From the IMG/VR virus record IMGVR_UViG_3300021960_000416, positions 1 through 26,999 of that record: 26,999 nucleotides of DNA. One strand, given 5' to 3'. The DNA comes from a virus. Every line of letters begins with the position of its first letter. The first letter of the stretch is position 1. The translations under genes and the position numbers were made by a program. The notes beneath the pieces are model-generated. The model saw nothing but the letters and a program-made list of their open reading frames with translations, did no database searches and was not told the origin of the DNA. Below are positions 1-23,896 of the stretch, piece by piece.

Positions 1-669
1 CCGCAGCAAACTGGCCCCCAGCAATGGGAGCCGGTGGATACGCCATGCGTCTGCGCTGCTAAAGGCGCTATGGAATGTTCACCACATACCCGTCTCAAGG
101 TACTCCTGCCCAACGTTCCTTTCCGTGGGGTATGGAGGCTTGAGACAAAAGGCTGGAACGCACTGAAAGAACTGCCCGGTATGGCTGATCTAATCCGTCA
201 GCTAAACGAGTCCGGTTCGATGGTGCGTGTGGCGCTGGGGATTGAGAAGCGAACCCAGATGAGGCCAAGCGGTAAGCGTAACTTCGTCACGCCAACACTC
301 ACGATGCTCGACACCCCCTTCGAGATAATGAGCGGCAAGGCAAGCATCGCATCCCTAGCGCCCGCCCAGCCTGCACCCAAAGCTCTGCCCGTGTCTCCAT
401 CTGAGCCAGAAATAATTGACGCCGAGATCATCGAGGAAGATGAGCGAGTGTTGGCTGCACGAGAAGGCGTCATGGATTGTGCAAGTCACTTTGGTGTTGA
501 TGCCACGGCGCTTTGGCTTGGCATCACGAAACAGGTAGGAGCTAGGGGTATCTTCACGGACGAGCAAGTGACCCGCATTAATACGGCCGTTCTTAAGATG
601 CGAGATGGCTCGTTGTTCCCGGAGGGATTTAACAACGATGGCACCCCAATTTGGTCTAGATCGACATGA
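1..669 (+). CDS. Recombination directionality factor-like protein (phiC31 gp3-like), 5' end outside window
   Basis: The frame is open to the left edge, so this is the C-terminal 222 codons of a longer gene; a GTG at 34 is in frame but is probably internal. Seen: a Cys cluster (C16, C18, C26 counted from position 1) followed by CSPHTRLKVLLP and then GVWRLETKGWNALKEL at residues 43-58. From memory, this order (CxC, later Cys, TRL, LP, GVWRL-T-G-NA-KEL) is the signature of the family that includes the phiC31 gp3 recombination directionality factor, which switches serine integrases to excision. Many phages with no visible integrase also carry relatives, so the role here may differ. The C-terminal third is acidic (EPEIIDAEIIEEDE) and then helical. 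The stop overlaps the next start by 4 nt (ATGA), which suggests translational coupling to the WhiB-like gene. No integrase is visible in the window. Confidence 0.85.
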   Translation, partial: PQQTGPQQWEPVDTPCVCAAKGAMECSPHTRLKVLLPNVPFRGVWRLETKGWNALKELPGMADLIRQLNESGSMVRVALGIEKRTQMRPSGKRNFVTPTLTMLDTPFEIMSGKASIASLAPAQPAPKALPVSPSEPEIIDAEIIEEDERVLAAREGVMDCASHFGVDATALWLGITKQVGARGIFTDEQVTRINTAVLKMRDGSLFPEGFNNDGTPIWSRST

Positions 670-1004
670 CCAGTACCCCATCTTGGTTTGTTTCAGCCCT
701 TTGTAGGGGCTCTGACACGAATTATTTTTTCCCTGAAGTGGGTGTGTCGATGAAGCACACAGCAAACATCCGCAAAATCTGTAGCCAGTGCCCAGTTAAA
801 GAAGAATGCCTCGAGCTCGGGCTAGAGTCGCACAATGATGAACATGGATTCTTCGGCGGCAAGTCCCCTCGAGAGCGTCAAGCGATTAATGCCGAACGAA
901 AGCGTGCTGCACGTCATGCGATTCGCCAGGCCCGGCGAGTACATGACTATGAACCAACGCAAGCATTGGACATGGACCGCCAAGCAGAAACGGGCGTGGC
1001 GTGA
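666..1004 (+). CDS. WhiB-family iron-sulfur transcriptional regulator
   Basis: A 112-residue protein. Seen: four cysteines in WhiB arrangement, C13 (in SALCRGSD), then C39-x2-C42-x5-C48, followed by the turn HGFFGGKSPRER at residues 60-71, which corresponds to the G[VI]WGG-type loop. A strongly basic helix follows (AERKRAARHAIRQARR), the usual DNA-contacting tail. Known of the family: the four Cys ligate a [4Fe-4S] cluster and the protein binds the primary sigma factor of actinobacterial RNA polymerase; phage copies such as WhiBTM4 repress the host whiB2. Inference: a regulator of host or phage transcription made with the rightward genes. The start overlaps the previous stop by 4 nt, and the 3' end overlaps the RusA-like gene in another frame by up to about 116 nt. 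This is the best evidence for an actinobacterial host. Confidence 0.9.
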   Translation: MTSTPSWFVSALCRGSDTNYFFPEVGVSMKHTANIRKICSQCPVKEECLELGLESHNDEHGFFGGKSPRERQAINAERKRAARHAIRQARRVHDYEPTQALDMDRQAETGVA

Positions 1005-1284
1005 AGCTGCTTATTGGGCGGCCTGCGAGTGGCGTAGTAAGCCCACGAGCCGCCGCCTCAACAACCTGGCTGTAGTCACATGCGTATTCCCTGTCACAAC
1101 AAACCGACGCAGAGATCCGCATAACTATTTCCCTACTATCAAACCAGTAGTAGATGGTTTGACGGATGCTGGCCTATGGCCCGACGACACACCTGAGTAC
1201 GTGCGGACAATCGAGCCAGTCTTCACCCGAGAAGATGGCAAAGTCACAATTGTTATTGGAGAACTGTGGCCGGAATCAAAGTAA
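889..1284 (+). CDS. RusA-like Holliday junction resolvase
   Basis: A 131-residue protein from the ATG at 889. The N-terminus reads as a beta strand followed by RFARPGEYMTMNQRKHW, matching the phage RusA form (strand, then an N-x-R-x-H-W start to the first helix). Next come a basic helix and RRRDPHNYFPTIKPVVDGL (residues 73-91), with D76, N79, K85 and D89, then GLWPDD; this is the family's D-x-x-N...K...D core. Known role: a dimeric endonuclease that cleaves Holliday junctions and branched DNA, clearing replication and recombination intermediates before packaging. The start is uncertain: 835, 916 and 943 are also ATG in frame. I prefer 889 because it retains the first strand; upstream GAGAG is a weak ribosome site. 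The 5' end overlaps whiB in a different frame. Confidence 0.85.
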   Translation: MPNESVLHVMRFARPGEYMTMNQRKHWTWTAKQKRAWREAAYWAACEWRSKPTSRRLNNLAVVTCVFPVTTNRRRDPHNYFPTIKPVVDGLTDAGLWPDDTPEYVRTIEPVFTREDGKVTIVIGELWPESK

Positions 1285-3898: not shown

Positions 3899-4101
3899 GA
3901 ATCCTTGGGCTTCTTGCCAATGATGGGCTCGACAGAAACGCCAGCCTTGGCCGCGATCCCGTTGCCTATCGCATATCCCAAGATACTTCCGATCATTCCG
4001 ATGCCAGCCTCGTTAGGAATTGCATTGACCGCAAGAAGCACCGTCAAGCAGATGAGGCCAACCAAGGCAATCAAGGCCTTGGAGGGATTGTTGATGTTCA
4101 T
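3895..4101 (-). CDS. Small membrane protein, candidate holin
   Basis: A 68-residue protein. Residues 8-28 form a strong membrane segment (ALIALVGLICLTVLLAVNAI), and residues 33-52 form a second, glycine-rich weaker one (GIGMIGSILGYAIGNGIAA). The C-terminus is basic (GKKPKDS). Size, membrane segments, charged tail and position right after the endopeptidase fit a holin, which makes membrane holes that release or trigger the lysin. The assignment rests on context, as holins share little sequence. Its ATG overlaps the endopeptidase stop (TAATG), so translation is probably coupled. Confidence 0.7.
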   Translation of the reverse strand: MNINNPSKALIALVGLICLTVLLAVNAIPNEAGIGMIGSILGYAIGNGIAAKAGVSVEPIIGKKPKDS

Positions 4102-4682
4102 TACTTTGCCTCCAATTCTGGAAAGGCCTTGAGTGCTTCAAGGACCGCAGGTGGATAGTTGTCCCCACATACATACCTGATATGCCACGACTCAGCATTT
4201 CTGCCAGACGCGACCTCCCAGGAAAAACCGTACTGAAGGACCGGAGAATCCCACCAGCCCTTGCCAAGCATCCAGGCAAGGCGAGAGCCGCTAGCGCCTG
4301 CGATATCGATTGCTAGGCCCCAACCGTGGTTGCTGGTACCAGGGGTAGCCATCGGGGCACGACCCTTCTTCAACCAGTATGTCTTACCATTCCACCGTCT
4401 GGCAACAGGCGGAATGCGTTTGCTCCAGCTTGTTGAATATCTCTGAAGGAACCCGCTTTCTTGGCGCTGATAGGCGCGGTAGGTGTCGGCCGTTGACGTT
4501 GACTGAAGATCAATGCCGTTGAAGTAGGCGTTTAGCTGAAGACAATTAAAAGCAGTAGCCGCCTTGTGGTGCAACGCACCCTTAGTCCCATGAAGCTTGC
4601 GAAGCAGGCGCTCGTCAAGCTTGCCATTCTGCTGGCCAGCAAGATCACTTGGCTGGATAATTGGGAGGACGTGATACTTCAT
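4101..4682 (-). CDS. Endolysin: M15-family D,D-peptidase (VanY-like)
   Basis: A 193-residue protein. Seen: SNHGWGLAIDIA (residues 117-128) gives the S-x-H-x-x-G-x-A-x-D zinc motif with H119 and D126, and ESWHIRY (164-170) gives the catalytic E and the third zinc ligand H167. This is the M15B/VanY D-Ala-D-Ala carboxypeptidase/endopeptidase core. Residues 40-90 are the usual TYRAYQRQ region preceding the core. There is no signal peptide, so release would need a holin. Position between the collar fibre and the holin candidate supports the lysis role: cleavage of peptidoglycan cross-links or stem peptides. AAGG lies 7 nt before the ATG; the fibre stop is only 2 nt upstream and the holin start overlaps the stop. 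It complements the glycan-cleaving enzyme on the other strand. Confidence 0.9.
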   Translation of the reverse strand: MKYHVLPIIQPSDLAGQQNGKLDERLLRKLHGTKGALHHKAATAFNCLQLNAYFNGIDLQSTSTADTYRAYQRQESGFLQRYSTSWSKRIPPVARRWNGKTYWLKKGRAPMATPGTSNHGWGLAIDIAGASGSRLAWMLGKGWWDSPVLQYGFSWEVASGRNAESWHIRYVCGDNYPPAVLEALKAFPELEAK

Positions 4683-4684
4683 GG

Positions 4685-5761
4685 CTATACCTTGATGATG
4701 TAGTTGACGACGATGTACGGCTGAAGGTTTTGGTGGCTTGCGTTGCTGCCAACATCTGATTCACTAACGGTAGCTGTATACGTCGGGTTGGGGTTTGTAT
4801 ATTCCGTATAGTTATCCCCATCTTGTGGAGCGGCGGCAATTGCTCCCGTTCCAGACTGAACGATAACGTCGTTAAGTGTTGATCGCTCAAACACGTGCCT
4901 ATGATTTAGCGTAGTTGAACTAACCGCAACTGAAACATTGTGTTTGTGTGTCGGCAATTCGCTTGCAGAAAGCTGATGCGTTTTTGATCCGCCAGTTTGG
5001 CCGAGCTGCAAAAACTCCCCTTGGGCCGAGTCCAAACCAACGCCAACCTTGCCCTTCAAATTTGGAAGACTAAAAGAAGAACCGGATCCGCCGTACCTAT
5101 ATCCGCCACCAGCGGCTCCGCCAAAAGCCTCAAACAAAGCAGAGTAAGTTGTTGTGCTTAGTGACTGACCTTGGCAAAGAAGCCAGCCGGTGGGAGCCGT
5201 AACACCGGCATATTGTGTAATCACACCAGCGGGCACGCCAGAGGGGCTAATCAAACCCTCAACCTGAGTTGCAATTGCAGAAATTCCAGCAGCACTAATA
5301 CTGTCTGCTTCAATTTGGCCCCATTTAATCCCGGAACTTTGTGCCGAATCAGCAACGAGCACCGTATTGTTTGCGCCAACAGACAGTTTCTGGGAGGTTG
5401 TGCCATCAAATGCAACCAAATCACCCTTGGCCGTCTGAAGATTGACATAACGATTTGCCTGTTCAATTGTGTAAGCATCGAGAGCGTGCTCAACAACGGC
5501 ACCAAGCGTATGCGTCTGTGCAGAAGATCCGTCGTAGGCGCGCTCAAGTACGTTGAACGAATTTGCCACACGTGTTGAAATAAGAATCTTTTCTTCTGTT
5601 GCCAAACCTCGATCAACAACTACAACAAATGGGCTACTGCCCGGAGGGAACGAGCTGCCATCAACCACAGAAAAACTCATGGCTGCGCTAGTCAGGGCGG
5701 CAGTTAGTGTCGTTTTCTGCGCGCCTCCGTCAAAATCTTTCAAAATATAATTGTTAGGCAT
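4685..5761 (-). CDS. Tail collar-domain fibre protein
   Basis: A 358-residue protein. Residues 38-93 carry the shared beta module (EEKILIS..., LERAYDGSSAQTH). Residues 95-175 form a short repetitive stalk (KGDLVAFDGTTSQKLSVG). From about 180 on, the tail-collar domain is clear: APTGWLLCQGQSLSTTTYSAL, then YRYGG...FSLPNLKGKVGVGLD, LSASELPTHKHN, NHRH, and the terminal HQNLQPYIVVNYIIKV. The His pairs (THKHN, NHRH) match the metal-binding rows of trimeric collar or short-fibre tips. Known role: receptor-binding or baseplate-type fibres. Inferred role: the receptor-binding tip of a short tail. TGAGGA precedes the ATG at 5761 by 5 nt; the gene lies between the nozzle-like protein and the endolysin. 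Confidence 0.9.
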   Translation of the reverse strand: MPNNYILKDFDGGAQKTTLTAALTSAAMSFSVVDGSSFPPGSSPFVVVVDRGLATEEKILISTRVANSFNVLERAYDGSSAQTHTLGAVVEHALDAYTIEQANRYVNLQTAKGDLVAFDGTTSQKLSVGANNTVLVADSAQSSGIKWGQIEADSISAAGISAIATQVEGLISPSGVPAGVITQYAGVTAPTGWLLCQGQSLSTTTYSALFEAFGGAAGGGYRYGGSGSSFSLPNLKGKVGVGLDSAQGEFLQLGQTGGSKTHQLSASELPTHKHNVSVAVSSTTLNHRHVFERSTLNDVIVQSGTGAIAAAPQDGDNYTEYTNPNPTYTATVSESDVGSNASHQNLQPYIVVNYIIKV

Positions 5762-5767
5762 AGTTCC

Positions 5768-7564
5768 TCACAGTGTTACCAATCGGACCACCATGGTCCC
5801 TTCAAATCCAGTTAATGAATCAGACCAATCTTGTGGCGTGTATTCGTACGCCTCGAGACGCACGCGTCGAACAATCTCGCCCTCGATGTAGGACAGCGGA
5901 CGCTTTTCGCGCCACGCATTAATGAGGTACTCCATTTCTTCGTCAATGTCAATGGAGTACAACTGGCCTTGGCCATCGTTGACCACGCTCTTTGAGTAAA
6001 GGATGAGCGGAACGACAAACTGCTCGACAGGCGGGACAACAGGGAATGCACGTACGCGCCAATACTTAAACGTTGGGGTGCTTGTTCCGTCACCCTCAAG
6101 CATGATGGTGGTGTTGAAGTAGTTGCCCTGCTCGCCATCGAGCTGAACGTCAATAGTTGTCTGACCAGATTGCTGGCCGACAACGGTTTCGATCTCTTCG
6201 TTGGCATCGTTCAACATTGTCATCGTGACTTTTTCGCCCGAGGCAAGTGCATCAAACGATGCAAGGGCGTCGGTCACCGACTTGCGTTCAACAGCTCCGT
6301 AGTAAATGTTGCCGGAACTAAGCGTTCCTTCGGTCACGTAACCCGAAGTGGTGCTGGCATACACGCCGTTACCGGCTACGCCAAATACCGTGCGACCGTT
6401 GAACCGAGCTACTGCCGTTGCTGTCGCAGACTGCTCGGCATAAACGTCGGTTGCATAAGCCGGCTGCAACGTAGCGGGAGTAATCGCCAGACTTGCTCGG
6501 CCAGCACCAGTCTTGTTCGGCCCAATGCCAGACCAGGTAAACCAAATGTATTGGCCCTCGGCCGTTGCATCGTAGACGGGACCTGGATCATCAATTAATG
6601 GACCATAAGAAATAGATCCGTCAGTGCCAACTGTGGAAAGACGAACGCCCTTGTTGGTGCAAATCAACACCAAACCCACATGGCTAACAGCGTTGTAAAG
6701 AAGTTCATTGGTTCCAAAAGGTGCAACTTCTGCACCTAGCACCAAGTTGCCACTGCTGTCAATTGTGAATCCGTACAGCTCAGACCTTGATCCGCTGTAG
6801 CCACCCACGTAAAGCTTGCTTCCTACAGCAAACGCAGTGGTCCACGTAAATGAGTCCTGAAAATGCGCATACAAAAGATTTTCCGAACCATTACTAGCCA
6901 CAACATGAAGATGATTGCCATGCGCATCAAGCAAATATCCAGCAGCAAACCAAATTTTGTCCGCGCTGTGGTTCGAAAACGAAGTAGTTGTAGCGGAGGC
7001 CGGGGTGCACTTGGCAATTTGTGAGCTAGTTGCAATGTAAACATTGATGCCGTCGGATGCAATGTCCTGTGGCAAACCACTAAATGTTACCTGTTCCCAT
7101 GTGACAAGGTCGGCCGAACGATACACGGCAGCACTGTCCAACGCATAAATATGCGCAGCTGTTACCGCCAGTTTAATGTTTGATCCATCAACGTCTGACG
7201 TAGATAGTTCCGTGCTAGGAAGAAGGGTCAGTTGTCCTTCGGTCCATACGTCAACTCCAACACTGGTATCGAAACGTCGAGAATCTCGAGACTCACCAAG
7301 ATCCATGATTCGTTGTCCAGCTCCAGCATGCCAGTTACGTCGGTATCTCCACCAGGCTCCGTCTGTATTAAAGAGAGAGTCGTCCACCTGCCCTGTGCTA
7401 ACAACAGAGTCACGCAAAGTAGCCAGCGAGGATCGACGATAGTTTCGTAGGTCAACTCCATAGGTCCGCCCATCTAGTCGTACCGTAAACGGAACGGCCT
7501 CGTTGAGACTCGTCTCTCCATCGTAAAAGGTATACGGATCCTGGCCGAGAACTACGGTCAACAT
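5768..7564 (-). CDS. Minor tail / nozzle-like beta-propeller protein
   Basis: A 598-residue protein. The N-terminal region has WWRYRRNWHAGAGQ and then RFDTSVGVDVWTEGQLTLL (residues 71-115), a combination I recall from actinophage minor tail proteins. Residues 130-450 are a run of beta strands with propeller-like blades (AHIYALDSAAVYRSADLVTW, DGINVYIATSSQIAKC, GSKLYVGGYSGSRSELYGF). The C-terminus (450-598) has an immunoglobulin-like strand set, then FPVVPPVEQFVVPLILY and an EEMEYLINAWREKRPLSYIEGE segment. Known parallel: T7 gp12 nozzle is also a beta-propeller-based tail protein. Its position directly after the connector supports a tail nozzle or hub role. The start overlaps the connector stop (TGATG), and the stop lies 6 nt before the collar fibre. 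Confidence 0.8.
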   Translation of the reverse strand: MLTVVLGQDPYTFYDGETSLNEAVPFTVRLDGRTYGVDLRNYRRSSLATLRDSVVSTGQVDDSLFNTDGAWWRYRRNWHAGAGQRIMDLGESRDSRRFDTSVGVDVWTEGQLTLLPSTELSTSDVDGSNIKLAVTAAHIYALDSAAVYRSADLVTWEQVTFSGLPQDIASDGINVYIATSSQIAKCTPASATTTSFSNHSADKIWFAAGYLLDAHGNHLHVVASNGSENLLYAHFQDSFTWTTAFAVGSKLYVGGYSGSRSELYGFTIDSSGNLVLGAEVAPFGTNELLYNAVSHVGLVLICTNKGVRLSTVGTDGSISYGPLIDDPGPVYDATAEGQYIWFTWSGIGPNKTGAGRASLAITPATLQPAYATDVYAEQSATATAVARFNGRTVFGVAGNGVYASTTSGYVTEGTLSSGNIYYGAVERKSVTDALASFDALASGEKVTMTMLNDANEEIETVVGQQSGQTTIDVQLDGEQGNYFNTTIMLEGDGTSTPTFKYWRVRAFPVVPPVEQFVVPLILYSKSVVNDGQGQLYSIDIDEEMEYLINAWREKRPLSYIEGEIVRRVRLEAYEYTPQDWSDSLTGFEGTMVVRLVTL

Positions 7565-8466
7565 CAGGTGAACCTAAGCGGATACTGCCAGCGCAGACGA
7601 TCCACTTCCTCCTGCTTGCGGCGCACATATAGCGGATAGATGCGAGTTGCTTCGTCAGACGCTGATCTTGGCGGAACTTCCTCGGCCCTGCGAGGCTGAT
7701 CCTGGGCAACGCGTGCCGAGCGTCCTGCCTCAGCATCACCCAGCAAACGCCACTTGATGCCCATGTCAAGCACGTCAAGCTGACTGGCCTGCATGCCAAT
7801 GTCATCAACAAGATCGGCGGTCCAAGAAATGGAATCAACGTCGAGGGGTGCAGCCGCCAGCAGATAGACCGCCCCTGCCCGAACAGGCGGAAACATTCTG
7901 AACAGAGCTCCGGAGGAGGGACCGTCCGTCCACGTCCCTGCTACTCCTTTCTGGAGTCTGCCGGACAGACGAGGCCAGGAGGAGGAGTCCTCGTCTGTCC
8001 ACTGGCGGCGCACATCAATGATGCCGTAGATGTTTCTCCACGACTGGGGCAGGTTGATTGTGTCTTGGCTATCGGAAACCGTTTCCACGCGACCAAGAAT
8101 CCGATACAGATCTGCGCCCCAAGAAGTCAGCTCATCAATAAGAGCTTCGTAAATATCCATTCCCGAGAACCGAGGGTTGATCATGACCTCGTCGCCGGTC
8201 GAATGGTTCAAGCGTTCCGAGCCATTCCAGCCTCGAAGCACTGTAATTGTCTGAGCAATGCGGTCCACTTGCATGACACGCATCAGCTCCTGCTTGGCAG
8301 AAATGACCGCGCCAGGAATCACCGAGGCCGGCAGGTCATAGCCAAGCGTAACTGTTGTGGCAACCGTTGAAAGGTTGGTTGCCAGGGTATTGATTTCGTA
8401 ACGAAATGAAGAAGCAAGCTGACGCTTGACGCGGTCAACAGCTGAACAGACGAGACTACGTGACAC
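7564..8466 (-). CDS. Head-tail connector (adaptor / tail tubular A-like)
   Basis: A 300-residue protein starting GTG at 8466, with AAAGGA 6 nt upstream and just after the capsid hairpin. Residues 1-30 are helical. Residues 30-105 form a beta module that includes QELMRVMQV and VLRGWNGSERLNH and aligns with parts of the capsid and fibre proteins. Residues 103-120 (DIYEALIDELTSWGADLYRI) are a long amphipathic helix, followed by a beta domain and a C-terminal helical region rich in Arg/Glu (YPLYVRRKQEEVDRLRWQ). Position between the capsid and nozzle genes, size, and the helix-plus-beta layout fit the ring protein between portal and nozzle in short-tailed phages. No specific catalytic motif is visible, and none is expected. 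Confidence 0.75.
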   Translation of the reverse strand: MSRSLVCSAVDRVKRQLASSFRYEINTLATNLSTVATTVTLGYDLPASVIPGAVISAKQELMRVMQVDRIAQTITVLRGWNGSERLNHSTGDEVMINPRFSGMDIYEALIDELTSWGADLYRILGRVETVSDSQDTINLPQSWRNIYGIIDVRRQWTDEDSSSWPRLSGRLQKGVAGTWTDGPSSGALFRMFPPVRAGAVYLLAAAPLDVDSISWTADLVDDIGMQASQLDVLDMGIKWRLLGDAEAGRSARVAQDQPRRAEEVPPRSASDEATRIYPLYVRRKQEEVDRLRWQYPLRFT

Positions 8467-8490
8467 TGCTCATCCTTTCGGACAGTGGCA

Positions 8491-8526
8491 ACCCAGGGGA
8501 TGGGGGGAACCAGGCATCCCCTGGGT
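8491..8526 (-). terminator. Perfect 12-bp hairpin after the capsid gene
   Basis: Arms 8491-8502 (ACCCAGGGGATG) and 8515-8526 (CATCCCCTGGGT) are perfect inverted repeats around a 12-nt loop, 18 nt past the capsid stop. The minus strand has no U run after the stem, so it may be a leaky terminator, an RNase processing site or a 3'-end stabiliser rather than a strong intrinsic terminator. Confidence 0.65.
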
Positions 8527-8543
8527 CACCGACTAACCAGGTA

Positions 8544-9704
8544 TCAGACTCCGGAACCCGGAAGTGCTGCGGTCAGATCAAGGGCCGTCCACTTGGCCAT
8601 GTGATCCTGACCCTTCACCTGGAAACCACACTCGGCCACCATCATGAACGAGTCGGTGTCGTCAGTCTTAGCGAGCTTCTGGGCCACGAGCGGCTGGAAG
8701 ACACGCTGGATGAAGTTGTCACGGTTGTAAGCAAACGCTTCGTTCTTGCGCACGTAGCGGTTGCGAACCAGGGTGACCTCACCGAACTCGGTCATGACGA
8801 CCTGAGCACGACGGCGGCCACGACGGGCGTCCTCGACCGTAACGGTCTGAACACGCTCGTTGCCCATGATGTTGTTGAGAGCCTGGAAGGCGGCCGGACG
8901 AGCGGTGATGAACTCGAAGTATCCACCGTTGTCGTAAGCAGCCTGCTGCTGGGTCTCAATGTTGGTAACGGTCAGCCAGTCCGAGCTGCTGTCCACGTTG
9001 GTCGTGATGTAGTGGTTCAGGCCACCGGTCGACCGGACGCGGGTTGCGCTGTCCTCGTACTTGATGCCGTACAAAGCGGCCTGCTCGATGCCAACGTTGC
9101 AGTGAAGCATTGCGTTCTTCATCTGCTTGTTGAGTTCGTTCGGAACGCCGTACTTCGGGATCGACTGCTCGGTACGAGACACCGTGAGCTTCTTGCTGAA
9201 GATCTGGGTGTAGTTCGAGTACTTGTCGCGACCCTGGAAGTTGGCCGAGCCGATGTTTCCTTCTGCGAGGACCGTGCCAACGCCGACCACTTCCGACGCA
9301 TCGACGTGCGTAGCGGCGGTGGAGCCGAGAGCGCCACGGGTGACCGTGAGAACTTCGGTGGTGGTGTTGACTGCGGTGACCAGCAGGATCTCGTTGTCGA
9401 TGCGGATGGCGTCGCCAACAGCAAACTTGACAGCGTCGCCAGCGGCCACGGTGAGGTCGGTCTCGCTGGCGTCGAGTGCCTCGGCAGCGGTGCCACGGGG
9501 GAGCGGAACATCCTCTTCCATCCAGTAGAAGACGGTGTTGTCAACCGGAGCCTTGCCGATCACGCCGAGTCCGTCCGAACCGATGCCCGAAAGCAGTGGA
9601 AGGTCGTCCGGAGTGAGAATGTAGATCAACTCATCGATGTTGATCTTGGTTTCGACCTGGAGGTCGTACGAATAGAAACTAGGTCCAACCAGTTCCTGTG
9701 CCAT
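8544..9704 (-). CDS. Major capsid protein, HK97 fold (SU10-like)
   Basis: A 386-residue protein from the ATG at 9704, which has AAGGAAGGA 8 nt upstream; the ATG at 9713 directly abuts that site and is unlikely. Seen: an N-terminal SFYSYDLQVETKINIDELIY, then PLLSGIG, FYWMEEDV, an inserted beta module (residues 94-139 with NEILLV and VTRGALGSTAATH), IFSKKLTVSRTEQSIPKYG, a spine helix with LNKQMKNAMLHCNVGIEQAA, GGLNHYI, and a C-terminal FMMVAECGFQVKGQDHMAKW. These match the SU10-type capsid family as I recall it. Gene position (after scaffold, before connector) agrees. The gene contains no TTA, CTA or TCA codons, which leaves the exactly opposed frame on the other strand open for 461 codons; strong codon selection fits high expression. 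Confidence 0.92.
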   Translation of the reverse strand: MAQELVGPSFYSYDLQVETKINIDELIYILTPDDLPLLSGIGSDGLGVIGKAPVDNTVFYWMEEDVPLPRGTAAEALDASETDLTVAAGDAVKFAVGDAIRIDNEILLVTAVNTTTEVLTVTRGALGSTAATHVDASEVVGVGTVLAEGNIGSANFQGRDKYSNYTQIFSKKLTVSRTEQSIPKYGVPNELNKQMKNAMLHCNVGIEQAALYGIKYEDSATRVRSTGGLNHYITTNVDSSSDWLTVTNIETQQQAAYDNGGYFEFITARPAAFQALNNIMGNERVQTVTVEDARRGRRRAQVVMTEFGEVTLVRNRYVRKNEAFAYNRDNFIQRVFQPLVAQKLAKTDDTDSFMMVAECGFQVKGQDHMAKWTALDLTAALPGSGV

Positions 9705-9709
9705 GAAAG

Positions 9710-9994
9710 TCATCCTTCCTTAGTGCGCGATTTGCGCAGGTGGTCTTTGATCTTGTGCCGTTGCTCGGCTCCCTGTTTCATGCGAACAGGACTCATGTCC
9801 GGATTCAGAACCGGCATCTTGGTGCCACCAGCTCTTTCGTCGTAGACAATTCCCTTGTTCCATGAGGGCGGCTCGACTCGATCTTTCCGGCGATTATGCC
9901 GGGAAGGTGTAGCGGAAGGACTGACCTGCACTCCCTTGGAACGGAGGCGACACCCGTAGTGTTCCTCGCATCCCTCGATTTGGCAGATAGCCAT
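9710..9994 (-). CDS. Small head-associated protein, function unknown
   Basis: A 94-residue protein. The N-terminus has a Cys cluster (ICQIEGCEEHYGC: C4, C9, C15), then RLRSKGVQVSPSATPSRHNR, SWNKGIVYDERAGG, and TKMPVLNPDMSPVRMKQ, with a basic helical tail. The LRSKGVQ-SPSATPSR...W-KG...G-x-MP-L...PV segment resembles a small protein I recall beside capsid genes in marine and actinobacterial podovirus-like phages, with no function given. It lies 3 nt after the scaffold stop and its end overlaps the capsid ribosome site, so it belongs to the scaffold-capsid cassette. It could be a decoration, portal-capsid or assembly factor. The Cys/His set could bind zinc. Confidence 0.75.
   Translation of the reverse strand: MAICQIEGCEEHYGCRLRSKGVQVSPSATPSRHNRRKDRVEPPSWNKGIVYDERAGGTKMPVLNPDMSPVRMKQGAEQRHKIKDHLRKSRTKEG
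9713..9721 (-). promoter_or_regulatory. Strong ribosome binding site of the capsid gene
   Basis: AAGGAAGGA on the minus strand, 8 nt before the ATG at 9704. It overlaps the stop codon of the upstream gene (AAG GAA GGA TGA), so the purine run both codes for the end of that protein and loads ribosomes for the capsid. It argues against the ATG at 9713. Confidence 0.7.
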
Positions 9995-15169: not shown

Positions 15170-18100
15170 TCAATCCAATCCTGATTCGGGCTGAAGAATA
15201 GTAATCCAATAGGACGACAGTGACGGGTTGGCAACAATAAAGTCATCAACCCATTCCTTGAACGATCCCTTAAGGGCGTTCAAAGTGTTGACTCCTCTGC
15301 TCGTACGGTCAAGACCAAGCTCGCTACGAGCAACAGAATACGCATCAAAAGAACGCTGCAAAGATGCAAGCGCCTCAAAGTGCCCAGCCTTCGGAGCCAA
15401 AGGATCCTTGATGAGATAACGCATCTGCGACATCACAGATTGGCGACGCTTGCGTGATTCGTCCGATGTCAGCATTTCAGCAAACAAGGGATGGGTAGCC
15501 TTGAACGACTCGGCCCACAGCAACCATTCCCGGTTCAAGTTGCGAGCAGCCTCGGGATTCCCAGAAGCTCGCAACTTCTTGTCTTCGCGCTCATACAAAT
15601 CCTTGGCCGCGAAATACTGGGTTGCACCTTCCTTGTACTTAATCATGGTAATGAACTCGTCGGGCGTACGACGCTCGCGGAATCCGTCAACCAATTCGGA
15701 GTTGAAGGCGTATTGGCTACGAGTTTCGTTGTCCTCGAGCTGGGGCAACAACCATGGGCCAGCCATCGAATACTGGTCAAAGAATTCTTTATTGTCGGAA
15801 TAAAAATTGTAAGCCTGTTCCGTACTGGCCAAAGGAGCACCGCTCTTAGAAGCAGTGCGGGCCACGGTATAAGCCAGTGGCTTGACGACACTGTTGATCC
15901 CAGCATTCTTATTAAGGGCCAAGAACTGCTGAGTCCCCTTTTCAATACCAAGATTTGAAATCAGCTCATAGTACTGAGACTGGAGCAGTTCGGCTGGGTT
16001 GGTCAAAGCGCCATCGGTAATCCAATCAAGCGAGCCGCCATCTGGGATCTGGATCATTTGCGCTGGGCCTGCCGTGAAGAATCCTGCCAATGCCTGGGAG
16101 AAAACGATGATACGCGCATGGCTACGCACGCGACGCAGATAATCATCTCGCTGCTCGGCGGTCGCATTATCGGGCAACCCTTGATCATTGGCTTCCATAT
16201 GCGCCATTGCAGCCATCATTGCGCTGGCCACGCGTTGATTATTGGGATTCAGATCCGTATCAAAAATGTCGCCTAGGCTTTGCCAAACATTGGCAACGTG
16301 TCGTGGGACAATTGCGTCAACGACGTTTCCGAAAACGTACTCTTTGCCAATAAGCGCTTCCTCAAATGTTCGAGCCTCAGGGAAAAGCGCCGTTACAAGA
16401 TCCAACGAAACCGCAGCAAACGGAGTAAGGCTTGGCCGGCCAAAATCTCGGTTGAATCCAGGGATCATCTTTGCTGTTTGAGTTTGAATCAAAGCATCAA
16501 GGGGAAGCCGCTTGCCTGGGAAAACGCGGTCTACTGCATCGAAGAAAAGCTCAGACCCAGGGTAAACAAAGTAGTCCTGACCTTGAGCATCGGTACGAAC
16601 AATGCCAACATTCTTCAAACCTTGATAAGTCAACTGAAGCTTGCGCATCCGCTCAAGACTTACGGCCGGTCCACCTTCGCTGAAAATCTTGCCCCAACGC
16701 TTAAGGAAGTTTTCTTCTGCATACCAGAAAGGCAAAAGACTGGACATTGAATCAGCAAATTGTGAACGAACTTCATGCGAGTCTACATACGGCATGATGT
16801 CGCGGATTGTGTGCTCGGCGGCATACTCGTAAACCTCCTCGCTGTAGCTTGCTCTTTGCTGTGCAGACTTCCGAATCGCTGTCCACTCATCGGGAGTAAT
16901 TGCTTCGTACAAAGCTCGAGCCTGGGCAGGAAGCTCGTTCCACTCTGCGTTCGAGATTGTCTTTTCACCTTTAAGGGCGGTGCCCTTTCCGAAGAGTCTG
17001 TCAAGTTCTCCCAGGAACGTATTCCCAGTCCTGTCGGAAATCGTTGAATGAAGCTCATCAAACTTATCGGCCGCATAAACAAAGGATGCGTCCATCCGTG
17101 CGGCTTCGCTCTTGCTACTTGCTTGGAGGTTTGACCAGAAGCTTGACGCTGGAGTTTCAACAACATCTGCGCCCGCAGCCCTTGATTTGGCCACGTCGAA
17201 TCCAGCGCGCCCAATACGCAAAGCTTCATTTAATTCGTCTTGTGTAAAGCCGCGCAGGAAAGCAAGAGACATCATGTTGTCCCATTGACTGGCGTTATCA
17301 ACGCCGTAGATCTCGCCAATAGCCCGGCCCAAATCAGACCAAATGTTGAGCTGATCGGTATTGATCACCGCATCAGGCATCCGGCTTTCAATCTGAGTAA
17401 TGGCAGTTCGTAGCAACTGCTCTTCCTTCGAGCTATTAATCAACCACTTTGTCATGTTGCGGTTGCGCTCTGCTGCAATATGGAATGCGTGTGCGGCCAT
17501 CGGTTTACGCGTGATGGCATCAATCGTCGGCCCAATAACGTTATTGAAACCAAACTGAACCGCACGATCCCAAACGTTTTGTTTAATTGGCTTGTAGAGC
17601 TGAACAATTTCCCAGTCAGGTAGATCACCGGCTGGTGTATTAACAACGTGTTCAGTAGTGGCGTACCGAATACGGTCACGCTGCGTATAAATGCGCTCGC
17701 GACGGCCACCAATTGTTGGCATATCAACGGGGGCCTTGAGATCATAGAGCCGCAGGCCCATGTCCGCTTCGGTCGCATCAAGCAAAACCGGACCAAGTAC
17801 TGGCCAAAGAAGATCGCTTGATCCTTCGTAAGACAGTTCGCCCATTTGGAAATAGCGTTGGTCGCCAGGAGCAATCTGGTTCTTAGTTGTCAACTTAGCG
17901 TCTGCGTAATAACGCTCGTTGGGGTTGATCAATTCACCGGGCTCAAGCGGAACGGCTTCGCCATTCACGTTTCGGTAAACCGTACGCGCATTGGGTCCAT
18001 CGTTTGCAAATACCTGAAGTCGCCGGCCAGCGCGAACTCGTTGATCAATGAGTTCCATCATGTTGTCAACAATGTTCTGCGGCCCTGGTGCCTGGGCAAT

Positions 18101-21100
18101 TTGATCGAGCCAATCCCACACGAAGGGAGTTGGAGACAACCAGTTATAGCGAGTCCCGATTGGCATTCGTTCCGAGACTGACCCGTAAAGAACTGTATCA
18201 ATCCTTTTGCCACGCGAGTCCGTTCCGCGCAGAGGTATGGATGTCCACTCCTTGCCAAATGCACTCGGATCGTCTGCGGGCAAATTCGTAACAGCAATGA
18301 GGGGACGCTCGGATACTCGTCCGGTCTTGAGCTGTACAAACTCCTCAATAATGTCGCTCATGATTTCGGCGGTTGCTTTATCACCAACAACCAAAGGTTG
18401 CTGTTCTGCGATGGCCGTCATGATTGGTGTAAGCAGTTCCTCCGCTTCTAGGTTCGGCTGCTTTGAGGTCTTTGGCTTAAACGTAATGTGCTTTGCAATC
18501 AGTTCGCGAATCAGATCGTCGTCCTCGCCAACCAAAGAAAACTCACCCCAACGCTGATCGGGTGCTCCTTGATATACGGCGGCATCTCGAGCACCCAAAT
18601 TAAGTGGGCGCGTGTCGACAATGTAGGCATCGACGGTGCTAGGAACTCCATGCCATTCGGCGTTCTTTTTGAGCAGCTCATCGAACTGGCCGGTTGCAGT
18701 TTCCTGTGCACCCGACAAACGCATGGCGTTTTTTGCTTCATCGTATGAACCGAAAAATGGCCAGTAGTTCTGGTCTGTGGAGTACTGCCTAAGCTTTTCA
18801 AGCTTCCCACCAGGGCGTGCTTCGGCAAGCGGATCTCCAAGGGCCGACCAAGAGCCAGCCGGAACTCGAATTGTTGGTCCAGACACTCGACCATAAGCAA
18901 GTCCGGGCGATGCAAACTCATGCAGATCTTGCATGCCCTTCACAAAATGACTCATCTGGTAATAATCGACATTTTCAAAGTCAAGGTCATCGAACATTTC
19001 GCGCATCCACGCGTTGAGCTGTTCATCAGTTGCTCCGTTTGCCTGCTGAAATTCGAGGTCAACAAGACCAAACCTAAGTTCGGTCGGAACGTCAGAACCA
19101 AGTTCGGTGACTTGAATTTCTTTAAACCTTCGACTTACCTGACGACGGAAAACTTCAGTAGCGATGTCAACAGTATCAATAATTGCTGGATCGTCAAACG
19201 CCTCTCGTACGCCCTGTCTGTATTTCGAGATAATTTGATAAGCAAATTGATCTGCTTCGCCCCTAGCAACAAAATCTAATCCCTCAAGCGCAAGGCTTTT
19301 TGGATCTATTGCTTCTACCATTTTCTGCGCAAAAGCAAACTGCTCGTTGAAATTCTCTATGCCGGGTAGACCGCCAGCTGCAGCCGACAATTCATCCTCA
19401 AAAGCTACGTTGAGTGAATCTACTCTTGCATCAACCCAGGATTCGTCGCCAAAGTGAGTGATCGCAAATTCGCGCCTGTGAAGATTGAAAGGATCTCCCG
19501 GCACCTCAAATGGAAACTTCGGAGGATTAGCCATGTGTGGGAAAAACTCTCCACCCATAAGCATGCGGTTTGCCTCAGAGGGCACGCCATACTCGACACC
19601 GTTGACGTCTGAAATATCTCGTCCAATTGACTGGACCAACGAATCGCCATTAATAACAAATAGCGTTTCAATTTTTTCACTGTCCGGTCTGGTTGCTGTA
19701 GCACCCACCTGTGCTTCAACGTACTTTTTCGCCTGAAATTCATTTAGCGAAAATGAAACTGACGGTTTGTTGCCTGTCCAATCTCGAGGAGTAAGACGGA
19801 AAAGCAAATCGCCATTGTCATCGACCTCAAGCAAATCATCAAACGTCATTCCGCGATAAGCCCAAAAAGAAGGCCGCGCCCGTGCTGCGGTTTCCGACAT
19901 ATTCAATACCGAAGGCAAGTGCAACAACTCAGGATTGTTGTGCCAAGCCATGACCATCTGGTTGAACCAATCACGACCGTAGGGCTTAGCCCCAGAAATA
20001 GCTGCGTCCATGCGCTCAAGCACGGCTAGCTGATCGGCAAGGCGCGTGTATCCATACTTGTAATCAAGCAGCGTTTGATCAACATCGGTTACGTCAATGA
20101 CGATCTTGTCGGACTCGGCCCCGCCAGGTGCTCGGTAAGATCCCCATTCCTTCATGTCAATCTTGATCTGCTCGATCTCGGCTCGACGCTGCGCAAACTC
20201 CATCTGGAGCACATCGTCATGCTTTGACCGCAGAATTGAAACCAGCTCGCCAAAGGTCGGCATGTTCTGACCCGGATAAGCGTCCCGAATTGTTTGCACC
20301 AAGGCGTTGCGCTCTACCGCCCAGTAATAAAGGTCAGACGACACTTCAGCAAACTCATCAATCTTAGACTGAGGAATGGTCATCCGCTGAAGCAGCGATT
20401 GCAAACGATCGGGCCGAGGTGTACCAGCATTGAGAATTGTCCAAAGCTGAAGTAGGTCATCATCCCACTTATTGCCACTCGCCGCAAACTCACCAAAGGA
20501 CTTTAGAGCCGGAATCAACTGAGTTGCCGGAAGAGCCGCCTCAATGTCTGCGTCATAAACAAGACGCATTGGCTCCATGGCCTTGGCAATAATTGGATCG
20601 TCCTCAATTAATCCCTGGATGCTTTCGAGGTTTGCTTCATGGAAAGGCTGCTGATTTGGCAAATTGTTGGCGCGTGTAGAAAGCCCACGTTCACCAAGAA
20701 CCTGAACAAGTTGCACCTGTTGCTTTGAGTTTTCGTCAACCAGCAAAGCTTGGACTCCCTTTTGCCGGAGGCCGGTCCTGTCCCACGGGGCCAGGTTGGA
20801 AGTACCAACAGTGTCCATGATCGACTTCAGATAGATGCCCTCAAAGGCACGCATGTCGTCCAGCAATGTTTCGTTCAAGCCGCCAATAACCATGCGGCGC
20901 AGCGAGTACTGATTGCCAAATGCAAGACGGGCAACAATATTATTGAGTCGACCCCGCGCAGTTTCTTCAACTGCCGTTCCGGAAAACTTGGCCGCACCGC
21001 GACGAAGCGCCTGGCCTCCAAAGCCATGCAAGAGCAATCCCTGGATTGACGCGTTGGCTCTACCAGAAAAATCGACAATGTATTTCGAGTAACTACGAAG

Positions 21101-23896
21101 CACCTTCTGCCAGGGCTGACCATCGGGGATTCGTTCAATGGCTCGAGCGACGGGGCGAAGAGGCGGGGGAACATCGTAACGGCTACGAATTACATGGGCG
21201 TCATACGCAGAAAGAGCAGACTGCTGGTTGAGCTTTCTCGAGGCCGCTTCAGCTCGGAAGAACTCTTCGCGCTGTGCGACTTGACGGCCCAGGAATTCTT
21301 GCGACCAACTGCCGATGCCGTAACGAGTCAGCATAGAAAGCATTTCTTCGCCTACGTTACGGACAACAAAACCAACACGAAGAAGAACGGCTGGCTTCCA
21401 GAATCGGTTTTGAGCAGCAAGGACAGCCGTGTTCTCGGAAACACCAAGGAGTGTTCGCATTACCATGCCCTGGCGAACGGCCTTGCGCATCTCTCGCAAA
21501 TCAGGAATTGCAATCATGTCGGCCATATCGGCTACGGGACGGAATGCCCGTGGCGTAAATGCATTGGACATAAAGCCGAGGCTGTAGCGAGACGACTGAC
21601 CAAGGCCATAAATCTGCTTGGTCTTTTCGAGGAACTCATCAAGCAGGTCGGTCCCCGACTTTGTCAATCGCATTCCACTTGCGGTTGCTGCGCTATCAAC
21701 TAAAGCAAGAATGCTGTTCAGTCGTACGCCAGGTGTATCACCAAAGAGAATGGCGTTTGTCCAGGCGTTGCGAGCATAAGAAGGCATGCCTACATATCTG
21801 AATAGCTCAACAAAATTGCGGATGTCATCGGGTGCTTCAAGACCGGTGATCTTGATTGCACCGCCTGGGATGCGTGTTGTAATGCCTTCGACAAAGTTGG
21901 CGAACGGCGATAGAACCGTTCCGATAAACGGCATATTGCCAATTGTGCGACCGACACGGTAAGCATCTCGACTATTGGAAAGCGAGTCAGTGAGGAAGCT
22001 CTTGGCTTCCCTGACCGTTGCTTCGGAGTAGTTATCTAGCTGGTCCCACAGATCAAGCGCGTTGACCGAATTTGCTTCCCTTAGGGCATCGGGAACCTGG
22101 TCAATAATTGTTCGCGCATGCAGGTTGGAAAAGAAATTGGCAACTAGGTCGGCGGCGTTATCACTAAGACCAAACTGCTTGAGTTCGTCAACCGATGATC
22201 GGGCAAGGTTGCTTACATTTGCGTTGCGAATATCGCGAGCAATCTTGGGTAGACGAACGTTTTCGATGCGTACATCAGCAATACCACGCAGGGCATCTCG
22301 GGCTACGCCCGTTGCTTGCGCCCAGGCATACTGCCCACGATTTAAACCACGGAGCTGTCCGTAGCTTGCACCAGGTACAACGCCCACACCCTTCATCACA
22401 CTCTTCAACTTGTCAGTGCCAACAATAAAATCAACAACGTTATTGGGCGTAAATGTTTCAGCAGCAATTTGACGCTTGTTCATAACAAGCATGTCAAACA
22501 GCGGTCGATAATCTCGTGCCCCTCGATTCAGAAGCGCTACGTCTCCAGCATTAACCGCATCCGCAACAACCTGAAGCTTTCGCTGCATTTCTGGCAACTG
22601 TGCGATCTGTCGAAACCGCTCATGGTAGTTGACCGTATCGACAAACTGAATGCCACGCCGCGTCATTGCCGCAGCTCGGGCTGCTTTGCCAGCAAGAAGG
22701 AAAGGGTCAATTAGGAAGATCGATACAAGATCAAATCCGCCGGACATTGTTCGGCCCCAACCGGAGGACGGATCGCCACCGAACAGTCGCACAATATCTC
22801 GACCCATGGAAATCTTACTTTTTTCAAGAACTGTAAGTGCCTCGCTAAAAGCGGGAATCGTCAACATGGTCGAAATCAGCTCATACGCATTTTCAAATGC
22901 CGGAGTTCCCGGCGTTGCGTATTTTTCTGCAACTCGCTGAAGTTGATCAGTGCGTGTTTTTGGATTTGTGGAATCACGAACACCGGCAATCTCGCGAGCA
23001 ATCGAAAGTAGATCGCCAGGGAATTCGCTTTCATCGGCTAGCTCTTGTGCTAGAGAAAGAAGATTCGAATCCATACCAAGAAGCTCGCTGGCTTTCTTGA
23101 TTCCAGATTCGGTAAACAGCCGCTCCCCGTCGTAAGCATTCGACCACGCATTAAGCCAGGTCGAGGTTCCACCATTTAAAATCGAAGAACCAACAAATGA
23201 CGTTGCCGCTGCCGCTGCAGTTCCGACAGATGCGGCGAGGCCCAAGCGACCCGCCGTCAACAAAGCTGTCACCGCAAGAGAGCTACCACCCGTAACCGGA
23301 GCAAGCGCAATTGAACCGGCCGTCACAAGGCCCGCCGCCAATGACATCCACTGTGTTGCATCGTCAAGCTGCTTGATGGTTCGGTAAACCTTCATGCCAG
23401 CTTCGCCCACGTTGTAAAGCGCATCGAACGTGGGCCCGAATGCCGGAGCAACCGCCTTACCAATTCCGCCGAAGACCTTTGCTGCCGGCCAGGCAGCTAT
23501 TGAAACGATCTTGCCGAATAGTCCAGAACCATTTACATCTTCTTCTGGGTATTTGTATCCATAGGCGCGTACTGTTGCTTGCTGAGCTGGCGTTAGCTGC
23601 CCATAGATCGAACGTTGCATCGACGGGTCATATTCTCGAAGCTGTGAGGCCAGACCGCTTCCGACTTGCATTCCATACAATGCGCCAGCCTGACTCATCA
23701 ACTGAGCTGTGGGTATTGGCATATTGGCCATCGTCGCAATTGCTTGCGGATTCGTGGCCATGTATGGATTCATTTTCGCGATAGTTCGAAAACGAAACGC
23801 ACGCGTATTATCGGCGGCAGTTGTTGCCATAATTTCATCGACAAGCAAACTGTCTCGGAGCTGTGCGTCCTGGTTATCGTTTTCAATAAGCGACAT
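15170..23896 (-). CDS. Giant 2908-residue virion (ejection / polyvalent) protein with a candidate ADP-ribosyltransferase-like region
   Basis: A single uninterrupted reading frame of 8.7 kb, about a third of the window. Residues 1-120 are helical; 125-165 are glycine/alanine-rich and amphipathic; 183-240 are a long hydrophobic Ala/Gly/Val stretch that could cross a membrane. Residue 850 lies in VVRNVGEEMLSM. Residues 1340-1455 look ADP-ribosyltransferase-like: AYRGMTF (R1348), KPSVSFSLNEFQAKKYV (S1379-V-S1381), LFVINGDSLVQSIGRDI, then PSEANRMLMGGEFFPH (E1441, E1450). Around 2380-2400 is SLLPFWYAEENFLKRWGKIF, a motif I recall from very large phage virion proteins. Position (after portal and a small head protein, before helical virion proteins) and lack of tape measure suggest an ejection protein carrying enzyme modules, comparable in logic to T7 gp16 or T4 Alt. 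No RNA polymerase or lysozyme motif was found. Starts by TAATG overlap. Confidence 0.9.
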   Translation of the reverse strand: MSLIENDNQDAQLRDSLLVDEIMATTAADNTRAFRFRTIAKMNPYMATNPQAIATMANMPIPTAQLMSQAGALYGMQVGSGLASQLREYDPSMQRSIYGQLTPAQQATVRAYGYKYPEEDVNGSGLFGKIVSIAAWPAAKVFGGIGKAVAPAFGPTFDALYNVGEAGMKVYRTIKQLDDATQWMSLAAGLVTAGSIALAPVTGGSSLAVTALLTAGRLGLAASVGTAAAAATSFVGSSILNGGTSTWLNAWSNAYDGERLFTESGIKKASELLGMDSNLLSLAQELADESEFPGDLLSIAREIAGVRDSTNPKTRTDQLQRVAEKYATPGTPAFENAYELISTMLTIPAFSEALTVLEKSKISMGRDIVRLFGGDPSSGWGRTMSGGFDLVSIFLIDPFLLAGKAARAAAMTRRGIQFVDTVNYHERFRQIAQLPEMQRKLQVVADAVNAGDVALLNRGARDYRPLFDMLVMNKRQIAAETFTPNNVVDFIVGTDKLKSVMKGVGVVPGASYGQLRGLNRGQYAWAQATGVARDALRGIADVRIENVRLPKIARDIRNANVSNLARSSVDELKQFGLSDNAADLVANFFSNLHARTIIDQVPDALREANSVNALDLWDQLDNYSEATVREAKSFLTDSLSNSRDAYRVGRTIGNMPFIGTVLSPFANFVEGITTRIPGGAIKITGLEAPDDIRNFVELFRYVGMPSYARNAWTNAILFGDTPGVRLNSILALVDSAATASGMRLTKSGTDLLDEFLEKTKQIYGLGQSSRYSLGFMSNAFTPRAFRPVADMADMIAIPDLREMRKAVRQGMVMRTLLGVSENTAVLAAQNRFWKPAVLLRVGFVVRNVGEEMLSMLTRYGIGSWSQEFLGRQVAQREEFFRAEAASRKLNQQSALSAYDAHVIRSRYDVPPPLRPVARAIERIPDGQPWQKVLRSYSKYIVDFSGRANASIQGLLLHGFGGQALRRGAAKFSGTAVEETARGRLNNIVARLAFGNQYSLRRMVIGGLNETLLDDMRAFEGIYLKSIMDTVGTSNLAPWDRTGLRQKGVQALLVDENSKQQVQLVQVLGERGLSTRANNLPNQQPFHEANLESIQGLIEDDPIIAKAMEPMRLVYDADIEAALPATQLIPALKSFGEFAASGNKWDDDLLQLWTILNAGTPRPDRLQSLLQRMTIPQSKIDEFAEVSSDLYYWAVERNALVQTIRDAYPGQNMPTFGELVSILRSKHDDVLQMEFAQRRAEIEQIKIDMKEWGSYRAPGGAESDKIVIDVTDVDQTLLDYKYGYTRLADQLAVLERMDAAISGAKPYGRDWFNQMVMAWHNNPELLHLPSVLNMSETAARARPSFWAYRGMTFDDLLEVDDNGDLLFRLTPRDWTGNKPSVSFSLNEFQAKKYVEAQVGATATRPDSEKIETLFVINGDSLVQSIGRDISDVNGVEYGVPSEANRMLMGGEFFPHMANPPKFPFEVPGDPFNLHRREFAITHFGDESWVDARVDSLNVAFEDELSAAAGGLPGIENFNEQFAFAQKMVEAIDPKSLALEGLDFVARGEADQFAYQIISKYRQGVREAFDDPAIIDTVDIATEVFRRQVSRRFKEIQVTELGSDVPTELRFGLVDLEFQQANGATDEQLNAWMREMFDDLDFENVDYYQMSHFVKGMQDLHEFASPGLAYGRVSGPTIRVPAGSWSALGDPLAEARPGGKLEKLRQYSTDQNYWPFFGSYDEAKNAMRLSGAQETATGQFDELLKKNAEWHGVPSTVDAYIVDTRPLNLGARDAAVYQGAPDQRWGEFSLVGEDDDLIRELIAKHITFKPKTSKQPNLEAEELLTPIMTAIAEQQPLVVGDKATAEIMSDIIEEFVQLKTGRVSERPLIAVTNLPADDPSAFGKEWTSIPLRGTDSRGKRIDTVLYGSVSERMPIGTRYNWLSPTPFVWDWLDQIAQAPGPQNIVDNMMELIDQRVRAGRRLQVFANDGPNARTVYRNVNGEAVPLEPGELINPNERYYADAKLTTKNQIAPGDQRYFQMGELSYEGSSDLLWPVLGPVLLDATEADMGLRLYDLKAPVDMPTIGGRRERIYTQRDRIRYATTEHVVNTPAGDLPDWEIVQLYKPIKQNVWDRAVQFGFNNVIGPTIDAITRKPMAAHAFHIAAERNRNMTKWLINSSKEEQLLRTAITQIESRMPDAVINTDQLNIWSDLGRAIGEIYGVDNASQWDNMMSLAFLRGFTQDELNEALRIGRAGFDVAKSRAAGADVVETPASSFWSNLQASSKSEAARMDASFVYAADKFDELHSTISDRTGNTFLGELDRLFGKGTALKGEKTISNAEWNELPAQARALYEAITPDEWTAIRKSAQQRASYSEEVYEYAAEHTIRDIMPYVDSHEVRSQFADSMSSLLPFWYAEENFLKRWGKIFSEGGPAVSLERMRKLQLTYQGLKNVGIVRTDAQGQDYFVYPGSELFFDAVDRVFPGKRLPLDALIQTQTAKMIPGFNRDFGRPSLTPFAAVSLDLVTALFPEARTFEEALIGKEYVFGNVVDAIVPRHVANVWQSLGDIFDTDLNPNNQRVASAMMAAMAHMEANDQGLPDNATAEQRDDYLRRVRSHARIIVFSQALAGFFTAGPAQMIQIPDGGSLDWITDGALTNPAELLQSQYYELISNLGIEKGTQQFLALNKNAGINSVVKPLAYTVARTASKSGAPLASTEQAYNFYSDNKEFFDQYSMAGPWLLPQLEDNETRSQYAFNSELVDGFRERRTPDEFITMIKYKEGATQYFAAKDLYEREDKKLRASGNPEAARNLNREWLLWAESFKATHPLFAEMLTSDESRKRRQSVMSQMRYLIKDPLAPKAGHFEALASLQRSFDAYSVARSELGLDRTSRGVNTLNALKGSFKEWVDDFIVANPSLSSYWITILQPESGLD

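Follow-up and report, generated by a model that had tools for sequence, protein, structure and literature searches.

A six-stranded barrel module probably shared by the capsid, head-tail adaptor and tail fibre proteins of one viral genome

Three virion proteins encoded close together in the record IMGVR_UViG_3300021960_000416, a major capsid protein (MCP), a head-tail adaptor and a tail fibre, carry the same short pattern of residues, which raises the question of whether these proteins share a domain and, if so, how it reached all three and what it does. The window analysed comprises positions 1 to 26,999 of this record, on one strand, and the features concerned are listed in Table 1. The residues on which a sequence-only reading had based the likeness (with the adaptor called a connector) are all present, namely E60 and R78 in the adaptor, E56 and R74 in the fibre, and E108 and R126 in the MCP, with GS at position +4 and His at position +10 relative to the Arg, and Val six residues past the His, in each of the three. 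The MCP residues had been given as E105 and R123, a shift of three that arose because they were counted from the second ATG, from which the MCP has 386 aa, as against 389 aa from the first. Only three copies of the module are present in the 27-kb record, those in the MCP, adaptor and fibre. The gap-free match over 34 residues that had been described holds for the three window proteins but does not extend across their families, in which the spacing varies. In the family alignments, the E-R spacing ranges from 17 to 21 in the fibre family and the R-H spacing from 10 to 13 in the MCP family, and the Arg is missing from some fibre-family modules. The E-18-R-10-H arrangement is exact in the window proteins and in the adaptors aligned, but its variation among MCPs and fibres disqualifies it as a defining feature of the module, and the gap-free match is partly the luck of this genome. 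The shared module is also longer, at ~75 residues, than the 34 residues originally aligned.

Table 1. Positions in the window of the three proteins, their modules and motifs, and the gene between those for adaptor and fibre
Feature	Position	Strand	Basis
Collar-type tail fibre, 358 aa	4685..5761	-	C-terminal Pfam Collar 1.6e-13, Gp10_C 1.8e-9
Fibre module, N-terminal, residues 6-95	5477..5746	-	Model, pLDDT about 92
Fibre motif LERAYDGSSAQTH, residues 72-84	5510..5548	-	Read from sequence
Probable tail nozzle protein, 598 aa, phrog_11667	5768..7564	-	Between adaptor and fibre genes
Head-tail adaptor, 300 aa, phrog_7578 family	7564..8466	-	phrog_7578 E 6.9e-33; model compared with solved adaptors
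Adaptor module, residues 24-100	8167..8397	-	Model; superposition on 8rk3_b and 9in6_M
Adaptor motif VLRGWNGSERLNH, residues 76-88	8203..8241	-	Read from sequence
Major capsid protein (MCP), SU10 type	8544..9713	-	Pfam SU10_MCP PF17236 E 8.9e-51; phrog_1328 E 3e-44
MCP module, residues 72-150	9264..9500	-	PHROG matches to adaptor family and tail proteins; solved homologous segment 9in6_M
MCP motif VTRGALGSTAATH, residues 124-136	9306..9344	-	Read from sequence

When the three proteins were compared as single sequences, the ungapped 34-residue score of MCP and adaptor was matched by none of 300 shuffles, and the scores of MCP with fibre (81/300) and of adaptor with fibre (236/300) were not above those of shuffled sequences, so that the three letter strings alone are insufficient to establish the fibre link. 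Alignment of the module families with hhalign joined MCP and adaptor with P 98 and E 1.7e-13, MCP and fibre with E 3.6e-5, and adaptor and fibre with E 2.2e-5, over 65-69 columns. As a control, the three module profiles were compared with 72 families of unrelated proteins encoded on the contigs analysed; the best E values were 0.008-0.03 and the best score was 21, whereas the true module pairs score 30-69. The three families thus find each other above background. Residues 77-142 of the MCP match the adaptor family phrog_7578 in the PHROG search, at that family's own module; 4 of 12 fibre modules also match this family, and adaptors from a distant phage group (L019, L024, L040, L073 and L091) bridge the families in that they match all three module HMMs. 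The fibre link (E about 3e-5) is weaker in sequence than that between MCP and adaptor. No Pfam model covers the module in a search with 25 module sequences. Direct searches of the PDB by sequence with the adaptor and with the fibre module profile returned chance matches only, and a combined module profile succeeded where these single queries failed. The combined alignment has no conserved stretch. As judged from these profile comparisons, the MCP, adaptor and fibre share one homologous module.

Models of the fibre N-terminus and of the whole adaptor were built on alignments that combined sequences of the window with those of viral contigs. In the models, both modules have six strands in identical order (residues 17-19, 29-32, 45-49, 57-65, 68-73 and 89-92 in the fibre; 24-28, 38-41, 54-57, 60-68, 73-77 and 93-96 in the adaptor), and both models independently match the same segments of two solved structures, 9in6_M and 8rk3_b. 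The adaptor module superposes on residues 478-558 of 8rk3_b with Z 11.7, an rmsd of 2.0 A and 24% identity, and on residues 59-146 of 9in6_M with Z 11.6 and an rmsd of 3.0 (VIA-align). The fibre module superposes on residues 479-558 of 8rk3_b with Z 9.2 and an rmsd of 2.3 (VIA-align), and on residues 54-150 of 9in6_M with Z 10.5 but an rmsd of 8.3 over 91 residues (VIA-align); its closest fold is that of the Ralstonia phage GP4 fibre, 8jov_1 (Z 12.2). For the MCP module, the six-strand order is that expected by homology to the solved 9in6; among solved structures, 9in6_M comes nearest in sequence to the window MCP, also across the module. The conserved Glu lies at strand 4, the Arg-Gly just past strand 5 and the His in the long loop between strands 5 and 6. 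Superposition therefore gives one strand order for the fibre and adaptor models, extended to the MCP by homology; with strand topologies in agreement and profiles that find one another, neither of the outcomes that the sequence-only reading had named as telling against it, differing topology or profile scores at background, was observed. Barrels of F1-ATPase also match the fibre and adaptor module fold, at Z 6-8, so six-stranded barrels are common and the fold alone is no proof of descent. Together with the lack of significance of the fibre link in single sequences, this could be taken to favour convergence, in which an ordinary six-stranded barrel and a chance RG-x-x-GS-x-x-x-x-H string would have coincided in each protein, but such an origin is highly improbable given profile scores well above those of the 72 unrelated families, bridging sequences that match all three HMMs, and the retention of the E and H at the same structural places. 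We consider it likely that each of the three proteins carries a homologous copy of a promiscuous virion module, ~75 residues long, that folds independently into a six-stranded beta-barrel.

The MCP passes the gathering score of PF17236 (173.6 bits against a cut-off of 24.1) and has its module inserted between FYW (residues 62-64) and a conserved A-E-G (residues 150-152). In two SU10-type MCPs of Cronobacter phage GAP52 that lack the module, FQWQ runs directly into the post-module segment, and when the module was excised from the window MCP, the BLAST alignment to GAP52_010 covered 306 columns instead of 219 and the E value fell from 2e-13 to 2e-17. Comparison with these module-less homologues indicates that the MCP module is an insertion. 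The two GAP52 major head protein genes are in tandem (L211:2817-4954), and the second protein carries a C-terminal extension that is Ig-like in appearance. The module site falls between the N-arm and the P-domain, an interval that is occupied by the E-loop in GP4 and T1 (PMC9698820, PMC11945409), and by analogy we infer that the MCP module lies at the E-loop tip.

The adaptor model resembles the solved adaptors of P1 (Z 11.0), SU10 (Z 10.2) and GP4 (Z 10.1) and the VP1 portal-tail structure (Z 9.9), and the part outside the module matches the adaptors of P1, Pa223, KHP30, SU10, GP4, VP1 and N4 over 160-180 residues with Z 9.5-11.0. The Pfam family SU10_adaptor (PF24175) gave no match to the window adaptor, and the related L040 adaptor scores 23.4 bits to it, under the cut-off of 27; the protein is therefore called an adaptor by its fold and not as a member of PF24175. 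In the model, the module is placed between helix 1 (residues 6-20) and helix 2 (residues 102-115), and residues 122-206 form a separate beta domain. The 598-aa protein encoded between adaptor and fibre probably has the role of a nozzle, as suggested by gene order and by comparison with SU10 (PMC9509320), and hhalign detected no module in it (E at least 0.16 against the modules). Directly downstream of the fibre gene, at positions 4101-4682 (-), is a gene for a VanY-type D-Ala-D-Ala carboxypeptidase, a probable endolysin, that by PHROG matches a domain of tape-measure proteins. Ahead of the capsid gene in the direction of transcription, positions 15170-23896 (-) encode a protein of 2908 aa that matched neither Pfam nor PHROG entries and is probably an internal or ejection protein of giant size. 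At 666-1284 (+), a WhiB-type regulator (666-1004) overlaps the frame of a RusA-like resolvase (835-1284) that probably starts later than 835, a combination that points to an actinobacterial host.

The module is not confined to this record. In 11-12 related contigs, genes for an MCP, an adaptor, a 600-aa protein and a fibre are present in the same order, and the module is kept in the same three genes, the point on which the sequence-only reading had suggested that relatives be compared. It is also present in the MCPs of Bacillus phi18-2, Vibrio VS-ABTNL-3 and many viral contigs (L188-L207), in both adaptor and fibre in the L019/L040 group and in Streptomyces phage RosePharie, whose MCP has no module that could be seen and is not of SU10 type by these profiles, and in the MCP and a 700-aa nozzle-like protein of L068. 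In the latter protein (L068:3864-5963), the module lies near the C-terminus (residues 595-663). PHROGs with the module include tail, tail fibre, baseplate wedge and virion structural proteins, and its fold is found in solved structures of tailspikes, the Chi tail tip (8vjh), the JBD30 hub and the Mystique tail tube. Many viral contigs (L099-L177, for example L109:724-1062) encode a separate protein of ~113 aa (MLRREF...) that apparently consists of a module of the fibre type and a short C-terminal stretch, with nothing else.

Because the same pattern recurs within one phage, the sequence-only reading had pointed to internal duplication or module exchange. The first of these, in which one gene would have passed its module on to the two others in the lineage of this phage, is unlikely and, as a recent event, is rejected. 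The three genes do neighbour each other, no two modules are closer than those of MCP and adaptor (E 1.7e-13), and the window MCP has 46.7% identity over 45 aa to the adaptor of L007. Across phages, however, modules group by the protein that carries them, with 3 changes as against 19.8 in shuffles, and MCP and adaptor modules are no more alike within the same phage (24.7% identity) than between different phages (25.7%), whereas identities within one protein family are 49-63%. Trees that place the three window modules in one clade were rejected by the AU test (p 2.8e-7), as were those with the window MCP and adaptor modules as one clade (p 5.8e-10); a single origin of all adaptor modules (p 0.32) or of all MCP modules (p 0.47) was neither favoured nor rejected. 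The grouping by protein, the identities and the AU rejections together argue that the module has long resided in each gene. A transfer from the MCP gene to the adaptor gene, or the reverse, is possible as an ancient event that predated the diversification of the group. Module exchange is upheld in a broad sense only, from the scatter of the domain over many virion protein families. The module would have spread by domain shuffling among the virion genes of many phages, with each of the three window genes inheriting its copy from older relatives.

Most likely, the module is a promiscuous barrel that serves in structure or anchoring, and in this it can be compared with phage Ig-like domains. It appears to fold alone and tolerates insertion in a loop, and is therefore suited as an add-on. 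The Glu, Arg and His would be structural, holding the loop between strands 5 and 6. Insertion domains brace neighbouring capsomers in other HK97-fold capsids, and the MCP barrel at the E-loop tip may likewise be an outer insertion domain with this function. The adaptor barrel would face outwards as an addition to the helix bundle, placed between its first and second helices, and the N-terminal barrel of the fibre would anchor the trimer on the tail, as in GP4. Of the 439 residues of the GP4 fibre, the 116 that are ordered in the solved portal-tail complex (8jov_1, 18 chains) are N-terminal ones, which fits anchoring and makes such a function plausible, by analogy, for the window module.

A common docking surface or a sugar-binding decoration had also been suggested. 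In the former, the fibre module would bind the adaptor modules, and perhaps those of the capsid, like-with-like, and the three copies would be kept for this reason. Adaptor and fibre jointly carry the module here, in the L019/L040 group and in RosePharie, and the N-termini of SU10 fibres dock on adaptors (PMC9509320), but the separate beta domain predicted at residues 122-206 of the adaptor could be the fibre dock, and solved hubs and capsids carry the module with no known matching fibre, so this form of docking is conceivable but unlikely. Its extension to a common assembly interface, with like-with-like docking of the capsid, adaptor and fibre N-terminal copies organising fibre attachment around the head-tail joint, is distinctly unlikely. 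Carbohydrate binding, with the barrels as decorations that bind host or environmental sugars, is very unlikely: although often proposed for phage Ig-like domains, as cited in PMC13320782, and although a similar barrel occurs within tailspike depolymerases, the conserved E, R, G and H persist in copies from hubs, which need have no contact with sugars, and no sugar-binding family matched any of the 25 module sequences in the Pfam search. The data thus give no support to sugar binding by the module, and the structural or anchoring barrel remains the preferred reading.

Among solved structures, the MCP of Vibrio phage VP1 (9in6, residues about 54-150) is homologous to the window MCP and has the module in the equivalent position. 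This is the only VP1 copy seen here, in the capsid; the VP1 adaptor 8zkk_B matches as an adaptor and, at about 200 aa, is too short for the module. In JBD30, the segment 478-558 of the baseplate hub gp53 (8rk3) is homologous in sequence (E 4e-5) and fold, but this copy is in a tail hub rather than in a capsid, adaptor or fibre protein. The N-terminus of the putative GP4 tail fibre (8jov_1) is like the window fibre module in both fold (Z 12.2) and sequence (E 1.9e-4), whereas at 204-213 aa the adaptor chains of GP4 (8jov_2 and 8jov_G) leave no room for a module. Residues 490-567 of lambda gpJ, also an insertion in a hub protein and corresponding to an inserted beta-sandwich documented at 483-569 (PMC10721106), are matched by the fibre model with Z 7.0. 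For gpJ, no sequence match was found and the Z is near the level of unrelated barrels.

Sharing of add-on domains between phage structural proteins is known and is best described for Ig-like folds. Like the module, the phage Ig-like domains (Fraser et al. 2006, J Mol Biol 359:496, as cited in PMC8718954 and PMC13320782) are small, independently folding beta domains scattered over the capsid, tail and fibre proteins of unrelated phages. The module differs from them in sequence family and apparently in predicted fold, a six-stranded barrel with an E...RGxxGS/T....H signature; none of the 25 module sequences has an Ig-type Pfam match, and Ig folds are absent among the fold matches listed for the fibre and adaptor models, which does not in itself exclude an Ig fold. 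Domain shuffling between functionally different phage proteins has been documented by Smug et al. 2023 (PMC10684548), the consulted sections of which neither name this module nor report sharing between capsid, adaptor and fibre. The module would be a second promiscuous one, not represented in Pfam, and common to capsid, adaptor, fibre, tailspike, tail tube and hub proteins. Its recognition by sequence, where the domain has hitherto been described structure by structure, should be useful to structural groups, and carries a warning for annotation, as matches to 'tail protein' families made through the module are uninformative on the rest of a protein. Set beside the Ig-like domains, it is a well-supported shared module and one more case of promiscuous virion domains.
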